The position numbers were made by a program, and so were the translations under genes. A stretch of 64,000 nt of DNA from the NCBI GenBank assembly GCA_022059125.1, contig JAEUWY010000005.1, positions 1,302,001 to 1,366,000 of the forward strand, in the 5' to 3' direction. Of this stretch, positions 19,648-28,857 are shown one piece after another. Below the pieces are notes generated by a model. The model worked only from the letters and a program-made list of their open reading frames with translations. It was not told the origin of the DNA and did not search any database. Every line of letters begins with the position of its first letter. Position 1 is the first letter of the stretch. Source of the stretch: Corynespora cassiicola. Its lineage: Eukaryota; Ascomycota; Dothideomycetes; Pleosporales; Corynesporascaceae.

Positions 19648-21465
19648 CTACCGCGCCTCTTTCCTAACCTTGTAGCTCACCCTCGCAGCACACACGCCCA
19701 CCACCTCGGCAACCCCCTCCCTCGCCAGATCCTTGCCAACCGCAAAGACATCCTTATACGCCTCGGGCGCCTCCTCAAACACCAAATCTCTCTCCTCGCA
19801 CACCACCCATGTGCCCCGTCGTTCTCCTCCCGTCGCCGTGGGCTCCAGCAACTGGCCCTCTCGGTGCTTGTACTTTTGCCCCAGCGACGCGAGAGCCCTG
19901 GCGCGCGACATGGCCCTCCCCGCGCCGTGCGCGAGGGACAAGGCATTCCGGGCGCCCCAGCCCGTGGCGGCGGAGAAGACGGGCCTGAGCATGAGGGTCG
20001 GTGTGCCTCGGGAGCCGGGGAGGGGCAGGAGGGGGAGGGGGTGCGGCGTGGTGGTCGTGGAGAGCGGGTCGTGCGTGGGCGCCGCGCCTTTGCGGTGGAT
20101 GTAGGCGTAGCGATTTGTCTGGCCATCGTCGTCGATGTCATCGATGGAAGTGGATACGCATCCCTCCTTGACATCCTGATCCGCTGTGCTGGGAGATGAG
20201 GATGGCGGCCCTGGAGGCCACTTGACGCGCTCGACGTGGTTGTGCCATATGTCGACCACCCTCCGTTCCCGCACTCTGGCTTTGGCGCACGAGATGGCGG
20301 CGGCGAGGTCGACGATGGGATCGCTGTCGCCGTTGCCTTCGCCGCCGCCGTCGCCGCCAGCGGCTGGAAGCACCATGTCACGGCTACGCCCCAATTCCCA
20401 TGCCTCCTCGCCCGGTTCTAGGCACGCGAGGAATCGCACGGCGATGAGGTCGCGGTTAGCCTTTGCCCAGCAGCAGGCCCGGTCGTGGTCCGTCATGTAG
20501 TCTTGCATTTCCTTGGTGCCTACCCTAAAGCTGGTGGTTTGCGAGTCCGACGTGTGCTTCTTTAGTATACTCCCTCCATATCCTCGCGAGCCCGAGTGGA
20601 CGAGGAGTATCACTTCGTCTTGGTGCAGGCTTGAATCTTCGTTCTCGGACTTCTCGACGACCTGTATCTCTGCGAAGTGGTTGCCAGCGCCTATGGTCCC
20701 GAGTGCGACGTCCCACTCCGGCCCGGCCGAACAACTGCTAGAGTCGCAGCCATCGTGACCCTGAAGCCACAGTTCTCGCGCAGCCTGCGTTCTCCAGGCA
20801 CCCTCCAGGCCTCGCAGCTTCTCTGCCACTCTCTTGCCCTTGTCGCCGTCGACCTGGTTCCTGGTCAGCTTGGTCTTGTACCAGGCCATGCCGCAGCCGA
20901 TGTCACTGCCGATGAGCGGCGGATGGACCCATTGCTGGGACACAAAGACGGCGCCAATGGGGAACTTGGTGCCTGGGTGTAGGTCGGGCTGGCCGACTCC
21001 AAGTACGATACCGGGCAGCGTGTGCGCGGTGGTCGTGAGCTGAGTGACCGAGAGGCCATCAACTGGAGCGTTTTCTGCGAGTACATAAACTGGACAGTCG
21101 GAGTTTGCCTCCTCTGTTGTGCAATGTGAGCTGGATTCCTCTCAACTTTCCGCAGACGAGTACACACCATGCCGGCCACTCTCCTTCCTCACTCCCACAT
21201 AGTCTTCGCCCGCGGAAACGAGCACGACTGCATCATTGTTCAATTCGTCTTTCCACTCTTGGGCCGTCTTTAGCTCCTGCCCGGTCCCACCAACGAAGAA
21301 TCTCGTGGGCTTCTTTAGCTTCAGTTTGGACTGTGCTGCCTTGACAACATGTGATCGGATGGAGGCGGCAGAAGCAGGATCCGGGGATGCAGAGGTTGGG
21401 ACGAGAAGTGGAGCCCTTTGGGTACGCTTGGCGTTCAAGGCTACCGTGATGCGCATGGACGGCAT
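19648..21465 (-). CDS. RtcB-family RNA ligase (RctB family)
   Basis: GTP- and Mn-dependent 3'-phosphate RNA ligase family. Model complement(join(19648..21113, 21168..21465)), 587 aa, 54-nt GT-AG intron. All catalytic positions of RtcB are visible: metal Asp170 and Cys173 in GSDIGCGM, His245 in GTIGAGNHFAE, His272 in VHSGSRG, His390 in DIWHNHVE, and the guanylylated His495 in HGAGRAMSR. Residues 1-100 are an extra N-terminal domain (IRSHVVKAAQSKLKLKKPTR, then TRFFVGGTGQEL) absent from bacterial RtcB; it has an alternating hydrophobic pattern that could be ubiquitin-like. Fungi normally ligate tRNA exons with Trl1, so the substrate of this enzyme is open: tRNA, RNA repair or other. Confidence 0.9.
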
Positions 21466-28709: not shown

Positions 28710-28716
28710 AAAAAAA
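28710..28716 (-). terminator. Pol III terminator of tRNA-His
   Basis: On the minus strand this is a run of seven T, beginning 15 nt after the tRNA discriminator base. RNA polymerase III stops at such runs, which supports the upstream element being a real Pol III gene. Confidence 0.8.
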
Positions 28717-28741
28717 GAATGTACCAATTTTGGCGGTGCTG

Positions 28742-28752
28742 GGACTCGAACT
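28742..28752 (-). promoter_or_regulatory. Internal B box of tRNA-His
   Basis: Reads AGTTCGAGTCC on the minus strand against consensus GGTTCGANNCC. The first two bases are the last AG of the insert, so the insertion has left a nearly consensus B box. Removing the insert gives GGTTCGAGTCC, a perfect match. Confidence 0.7.
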
Positions 28753-28806
28753 GCGAGCTGTTAGCATCGCTGCGGCTATAGATCCACTGGAAGTGGGCCA
28801 ACCTAC
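28751..28806 (-). other. Spliceosomal-intron-like 56-nt insert in tRNA-His T arm
   Basis: On the minus strand the insert begins GTAGGT, contains GCTAACA about ten nt before its end, and ends CAG. These match the donor, branch site and acceptor of protein-gene introns in this window: the Nup120 second intron also starts GTAGGTT and has GCTAAC. Its length also equals that of the local mRNA introns. An internal hairpin CCACT/AGTGG is present. Placement is ambiguous by one base because G precedes it and G ends it. Confidence 0.75.
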
Positions 28807-28839
28807 CCCAGGCTGGCGCGGCCACAACGCGACGTCATA

Positions 28840-28850
28840 CCCCTAGACCA
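28840..28850 (-). promoter_or_regulatory. Internal A box of tRNA-His
   Basis: Reads TGGTCTAGGGG on the minus strand, close to the eukaryotic A-box consensus TGGCNNAGTGG. It covers tRNA positions 8-18 as expected. Confidence 0.75.
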
Positions 28851-28857
28851 CACCACC

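Follow-up and report, generated by a model that had tools for sequence, protein, structure and literature searches.

Putative spliceosomal introns in the T arm of nuclear tRNA genes of the fungus Corynespora cassiicola

In the textbook scheme, introns of transfer RNA (tRNA) are cut out by a protein endonuclease and the ends sealed by a ligase, and the spliceosome serves messenger RNA (mRNA) and a small number of other RNAs, U6 among them. The U6 RNA of S. pombe, which is made by RNA polymerase III (Pol III), carries an mRNA-type intron (PMC8917221), and among small structured RNAs frequent interruption by an intron is described as known for U3 and U6 alone (PMC5832005). For tRNA-Ile(UAU) of the red alga Cyanidioschyzon merolae, the splicing mechanism is described as little known (PMC9602550). 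Here we describe a nuclear tRNA-His(GTG) gene of Corynespora cassiicola, located in a 64-kb stretch hereafter called the window (G000:C5:1302001-1366000), whose T arm is split by a 56-nucleotide (nt) insert with the signals of an mRNA intron. The insert is very probably a small U2-type spliceosomal intron in a functional gene, which would be transcribed by Pol III and freed of its intron by the spliceosome. A preliminary description of the locus had taken it for a single odd gene; at least 16 genes carry such inserts. Our analysis covers one genome of one species, 44.35 Mb in size, and gene counts from the genome-wide searches are lower bounds.

The split tRNA-His gene and its copies

The gene lies on the minus strand of the window (28857-28731) and consists of a 51-nt exon 1, the 56-nt insert, and a 20-nt exon 2. 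Its anatomy is largely as first described: the split falls at 53/54, the insert starts with GTAGGT, holds GCTAAC, and ends in CAG, and the T-stem halves CTGGG and CCCAG form all five pairs once it is removed. The full cloverleaf claimed at the same time stands for the T stem and the acceptor stem (7/7 pairs), and has to be amended for a T-C mismatch at 27-43, the top of the anticodon stem. Exon 1 and insert both end in G, so that a joint one base earlier would yield an identical product; we place it at 53/54 because the GT-AG ends choose that reading. ARAGORN reports no tRNA when the insert is present and tRNA-His(gtg) when it is removed, and scans of the whole window with ARAGORN and Rfam returned no tRNA and no Rfam family.

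A BLAST search with the joined exons found three tRNA-His loci in the genome, each matching exon 1 at 100% and none continuous through the joint. The two further copies have their exon 1 at G000:C5:281750-281800 and C2:4564054-4564104, and the three inserts, of 56, 58, or 59 nt, all occupy the same position. Between copies, the exons show 0/71 differences, while 3-9 substitutions and 3-5 gap columns separate the inserts; alignment of the 30 upstream bases gives 19-23 matches and 6-10 gap columns. One A-T pair of a hairpin within the insert is replaced by T-A in the other two copies, a compensatory change, and these two lack the fifth pair of the hairpin.

No intact tRNA-His gene was found by the joined-exon search, by ARAGORN over the fetched loci, or among at least 53 Rfam tRNA matches in the genome. 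A pattern for the intact gene matched 16 times in the genome, 0/16 being tRNA, with 27 matches for the reversed control. As the genome covariance search scored 63 of 1206 candidates, its tRNA counts are lower bounds. The count of intact tRNA-His(GTG) genes proposed in the preliminary description thus gives none by BLAST, pattern, or Rfam match, and its suggestion of a recently disrupted copy sits poorly with this count and with the retention of the insert in 3/3 copies.

Sixteen tRNA genes with T-arm inserts

The split genes comprise three tRNA-His, six tRNA-Lys(CTT), three tRNA-Ile(AAT), three tRNA-Ser(GCT), and one tRNA-Ile(TAT)-like gene. The insert sits at 53/54 in 12 of them (His, Lys(CTT), and Ile(AAT)) and at 58/59 in the other four (Ser(GCT) and Ile(TAT)-like). 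None of the 16 T-arm inserts uses the canonical tRNA-intron position 37/38, where the split Lys and Ile genes carry an additional, canonical intron. Among the weakest Rfam matches were a tRNA-Lys(CTT) gene with this normal intron plus a second insert at 53/54, and a tRNA-Ser(GCT) gene interrupted after TTCGA. Genome-wide, the pattern CTAAC...AGTTCRANNC matched 17 times, at 11 tRNA genes (3 His, 5 Lys(CTT), and 3 Ile(AAT)) and 6 other sites; GTTCRAGTRNG...CTAAC...AG matched 10 times, at 4 tRNA genes (3 Ser(GCT) and the Ile(TAT)-like gene) and 6 other sites; and CTGAC...AGTTCRANNC matched 30 times, of which one, inspected because of its place in a Lys cluster, is the sixth tRNA-Lys(CTT). Since these patterns are no commoner than their reversed controls (17 vs 58, 10 vs 12, and 30 vs 40), the evidence is the tRNA context of the matches and not their number.

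Exon BLAST with tRNA-Ser(GCT) returned three genes, all of them split, and five more matches at 81-83% that are other Ser tRNAs. With tRNA-Ile(AAT) it returned five genes, three split and two continuous through the T arm. One tRNA-Lys(CTT) gene has no T-arm insert (L023); the proportions for Lys(CTT) (6/7 split) and Ile(TAT) (1/1 split) refer to the genes met and not to an exon BLAST census. Phe, Tyr, Pro, Glu, and elongator Met tRNAs were not among the genes met, with 63/1206 candidates scored; these were either missed by the search or are split outside the sites that the patterns cover.

ARAGORN recognizes a tRNA in 16/16 split genes without the insert and in 0/16 with it; genes of this kind can therefore escape a tRNA finder. 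The identity is right in 15/16 after removal. The Ile(TAT)-like gene, whose anticodon stem fits only with one mismatch, is called Glu, and its long anticodon intron seems to confuse the program. In the joined genes, the acceptor stem is paired 7/7 in all 16, and the T stem 5/5 in 15 and 4/5 in one Ile(AAT).

Both insertion sites abut the internal promoter. The B box, GGTTCGANTCC, spans tRNA positions 52-62. In the 12 genes split at 53/54, the AG of the insert stands for positions 52-53 and is followed by TTCRANNCC, rebuilding the B box across the 3' joint with its first base altered; in the four genes split at 58/59, GTTCGA continues into the GT of the insert, which takes positions 59-60, and the final two bases of the B box are lost. 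In 16/16 genes, GTTCRA, the core of the box, runs without interruption. This fit suggests that only sites sparing the internal promoter were open to introns. Downstream, a run of at least five T lies within 22 nt of 14/16 genes. The exceptions are one Ser locus with 24 nt of flank and the first gene of a tandem pair of split tRNA-Lys genes (L106, G000:C6:1322960-1323280), after which no such run occurs within 80 nt before its neighbor. Another tandem pair, an intact tRNA-Ile followed by a split tRNA-Ile (L126/L110, G000:C20:1493937-1494190), likewise has no run of at least five T within 80 nt after the first gene; both pairs are probably dicistronic precursors. The motif CATCAA occurs within 40 nt upstream of 10/16 split genes, compared with 9/29 tRNA genes without a T-arm insert.

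These signals bear on the idea that the split genes yield spliced RNA polymerase II (Pol II) transcripts, the tRNA being a by-product or the RNA not being used as a tRNA. Spliceosomal introns are indeed usual in Pol II transcripts, and the window copy has an A+T-rich, TATA-like sequence upstream. The A box and the B box core are nevertheless retained, and T runs follow 14/16 genes, which makes this idea scarcely credible.

Exon conservation extends to the other families. The tRNA-Ser copies have 0/81 exon differences, with 11-16 substitutions and 3-13 gap columns in their inserts; for tRNA-Lys, 0-4/83 exon differences accompany 5-14 insert substitutions and 0-14 gap columns, and for tRNA-Ile(AAT), 2-3/76 accompany 6-7 and 7-14, respectively. 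It could be argued that the 16 genes are pseudogenes disrupted by insertion of a small element, given that Lys(CTT) and Ile(AAT) have intact sisters (L023 and two of five genes, respectively) and that one split Ile has a T-stem mismatch. However, the His and Ser exons remain identical while the inserts diverge, T-stem halves pair across the insert, acceptor stems and promoter are not decayed, and T runs follow 14/16 genes within 22 nt. A decayed gene, moreover, would not retain GT, CTRAC, and AG in 16/16 cases, and an intact His or Ser(GCT) gene was not found in the searches made, whose census is a lower bound. We therefore regard disruption as highly improbable.

Putative splice signals, proposed removal, and the surrounding loci

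All 16 inserts start with GTANG, end in AG, and measure 48-59 nt. Each contains CTRAC, the branch-site motif of filamentous fungi (15 CTAAC and 1 CTGAC), whose presumed branch A lies 10-14 nt before the 3' end. In terminal dinucleotides (GT...AG, 16/16) and in a CTRAC near the 3' end (16/16), they conform to U2-type introns. Their lengths compare with 60 and 55 nt in the adjacent VPS9-domain gene, whose introns, the only two mRNA introns measured, have GCTGAC and GCTTAC at 12 and 10 nt from the end. An RtcB gene considered as a second source of mRNA introns gave a poor spliced alignment (218 of 1142) and was left unused. Shuffles that keep composition show the three marks together at a mean of 2.8e-5 per insert, in a test made after the motif had been noticed. 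Ten of the 16 inserts were recovered without a splice motif in the query (three each of His, Ser, and Ile(AAT) by exon BLAST, and Lys_C20 by covariance search), and all ten carry the motifs.

Alignments of inserts within families score at a mean z of 9.8 for His, 4.1 for Ile(AAT), 3.0 for Lys, and 1.0 for Ser. Between families, they stay near shuffle level (mean z 0.05 to 2.0), giving no clear common origin; the exception is Ile(AAT) against Ile(TAT), with a mean z of 3.1 over 3 pairs. A dispersed repeat was considered and rejected: the 12-base start GTAGGTTGGCCC occurs five times in the genome, three of them in tRNA-His and two unrelated, with seven occurrences of the reversed control. Self-splicing introns of group I or II, which are hundreds of nt long with a conserved core, were likewise rejected at insert lengths of 48-59 nt and with no Rfam family in the window. 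TTTT is absent from 16/16 inserts, which shuffles reproduce with a probability of 0.054 and which is only suggestive of selection against Pol III terminators.

Alternatively, the tRNA splicing endonuclease could remove the inserts as non-canonical tRNA introns, in which case the splice-like motifs would be incidental. Introns at 53/54 are described in C. merolae tRNA-Ile(UAU) and in archaea (PMC9602550, PMC4090602), and with their T-arm insertion point at 53/54 the His, Lys, and Ile(AAT) genes share this feature of the bulge-helix-bulge class. The endonuclease should, in addition, act on the Lys and Ile transcripts at their 37/38 introns. A four-pair bulge-helix-bulge helix is, however, present in 0/16 genes: in our test, which covered only a 4-bp central helix between exon 1 and the 3' part of the insert with 3-nt bulges, 1-3 of the 4 pairs form strictly and at most 3 with one-base slides. 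For 11 of the 13 non-His inserts, the folding energy is no lower than -3 kcal/mol, and the occurrence of GT, CTRAC, and AG in all 16 would be left unexplained. This explanation appears unlikely to us, and we favor the spliceosome because of its precedent in U6 and because the endonuclease mechanism does not predict the motifs. Of the three options raised in the preliminary description, removal by the spliceosome from a Pol III transcript has by far the strongest support, ahead of the endonuclease and the disrupted copy.

Several observations weigh against a functional, spliceosome-removed intron. For six of the 16 inserts, every search that recovered them had CTRAC in its query, and the second intron of the VPS9-domain gene has CTTAC in its place. 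The inserts are also not uniform: G content is 24-29% in the His inserts and 29-32% in the two mRNA introns, but 6-18% in the 13 non-His inserts, where 26% is the median for random 54-base segments from the window, and the His inserts fold with a minimum free energy of -13 to -17 kcal/mol. Selection for unstructured non-His inserts was examined and rejected, these being mostly no less folded than shuffles of their own G-poor composition. Where two intact Ile copies pair fully in the T stem, the split Ile genes have a G-U pair (two genes) or a mismatch (one), so that their use is less certain. The intact Lys(CTT) and Ile(AAT) copies show an empty site, so that the insert is dispensable for these tRNAs and the split copies need not be used, and there is a small chance that a diverged intact tRNA-His or tRNA-Ser(GCT) gene escaped the searches. 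Nine U6 copies above the cut-off have no intron, which indicates that Pol III transcripts in general are not invaded in this genome. These nine U6 small nuclear RNA matches (L080-L088) are mutually diverged, and at least two differ just after ACAGAGA.

For maturation through the spliceosome, we infer the following order from the sequence. Pol III would transcribe the split gene from its intact A box and unbroken B box core, and the spliceosome would recognize GTANG, CTRAC, and AG and take the intron out. The T arm could fold only afterward; hence, splicing would precede T-loop modification and probably also end trimming. In Lys and Ile transcripts, the second intron at 37/38 would presumably fall to the tRNA endonuclease. 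The codons CAC and CAT depend on tRNA-His for decoding, and AGC and AGT on tRNA-Ser(GCT), as no other tRNA reads them. Provided that the searches overlooked no intact gene for either tRNA, decoding of CAY and AGY would thus have to await splicing, which suggests that the mRNA-splicing machinery may be needed to make essential tRNAs.

Table 1. Features of the split tRNA-His(GTG) locus, in window positions.
Feature	Position	Strand	Basis
tRNA-His(GTG) exon 1, positions 1-53	28807..28857	-	Identical in three genomic copies
Anticodon GTG	28823..28825	-	Sequence; ARAGORN tRNA-His(gtg) without insert
Pol III A box region TGGTCTAGGGGT	28839..28850	-	Sequence; consensus
56-nt T-arm insert at 53/54, putative spliceosome-type intron	28751..28806	-	Similar but diverged inserts in two other tRNA-His genes
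Putative 5' splice site GTAGGT	28801..28806	-	Sequence
Branch-site motif CTAAC; presumed branch A 28761, 10 nt from insert end	28760..28764	-	Sequence
Putative 3' splice site CAG	28751..28753	-	Sequence
Hairpin CCACT-TCC-AGTGG within insert	28784..28796	-	Sequence; comparison of copies
Pol III B box rebuilt over 3' joint: AG + TTCGAGTCC	28742..28752	-	Sequence; consensus
tRNA-His exon 2, positions 54-73	28731..28750	-	Identical in three copies
7-T run, likely Pol III terminator	28710..28716	-	Sequence
Upstream CATCAA	28880..28885	-	Sequence

The open reading frame adjoining the split gene has a 100% match along the query to the protein BS50DRAFT_542377 from Corynespora cassiicola Philippines, and a second one in the window matches a protein of the same strain at 93%, which places the organism in this species (Dothideomycetes, Pleosporales) or very close to it. 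About 8 kb from the split tRNA, the window holds a gene for an RtcB-type RNA ligase (19651-20943, minus strand; Pfam PF01139), with relatives in many Dothideomycetes among at least 120 matches. Fungi are generally described as lacking RtcB and relying on Trl1. Elsewhere in the genome, a TTAGGG telomere array is directly joined to a mitochondrial-like tRNA-Met region near a contig end (L097, G000:C18:126400-127100), which would be either mitochondrial DNA inserted at a telomere or a join made in the assembly. An A+T-rich remnant resembling ribosomal DNA (L079, G000:C19:735981), with a 5.8S score under the family cut-off, was apparently mutated by repeat-induced point mutation (RIP).

Implications and comparison with known systems

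Taken further, we think it likely that in this lineage the spliceosome took over part of tRNA maturation, so that all CAY and Ser AGY decoding would depend on it, and that intron gain occurred repeatedly, at either edge of the B box core, with the AG or GT of the intron completing the promoter there. If so, these tRNA genes would cross the divide between endonuclease and spliceosome and tie translation directly to pre-mRNA splicing, and a spliceosome fault would halt translation at the level of tRNA. Split tRNA genes would also give a new example from nature of non-coding genes acquiring introns, in which the internal Pol III promoter acts as a clear selective filter. Fungal genomes seemingly without tRNA-His or tRNA-Ser(GCT) may hold more of them.

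Searches of the open-licence full-text literature in PMC showed no report of a spliceosomal intron in a tRNA gene. Scans of IMG/VR and GTDB contigs, collections without fungal genomes, returned no split or intact versions of these tRNA genes, as expected. Among spliceosomal introns in Pol III RNAs the inserts have one relative, U6, and might be read strictly as a form of it; as a class of tRNA intron, we found no precedent for them.

Canonical fungal tRNA introns at 37/38 are likewise nuclear and occur in the same Lys and Ile genes, but the T-arm inserts differ from them in position, length, signals, and presumed enzyme. Archaea, to our knowledge, have no spliceosome. Archaeal tRNA introns at 53/54, 56/57, and 59/60 share the T-arm position, but use bulge-helix-bulge or related motifs and the archaeal endonuclease (PMC4090602), presumably unlike the inserts described here. 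Eukaryotic T-arm introns, even at 53/54 and together with a 37/38 intron in one gene, are described in C. merolae and nucleomorphs, in agreement with the preliminary description, which knew of T-arm introns from archaea and some algae (PMC9602550, PMC4090602). The C. merolae introns are ascribed to the endonuclease and a bulge-helix-bulge, whereas in C. cassiicola this motif is missing and spliceosomal signals are present; the nucleomorph inserts of Guillardia theta are 3-24 nt long (PMC4090602), compared with 48-59 nt here. The fungal U6 and U3 introns resemble the T-arm inserts in that the host RNA is short, structured, and non-coding and the intron bears normal spliceosomal signals. In C. 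cassiicola, none of the U6 genes found has an intron, and the hosts are instead tRNAs: five isoacceptors and 16 genes, each split at one of two fixed T-arm sites that abut the internal promoter.
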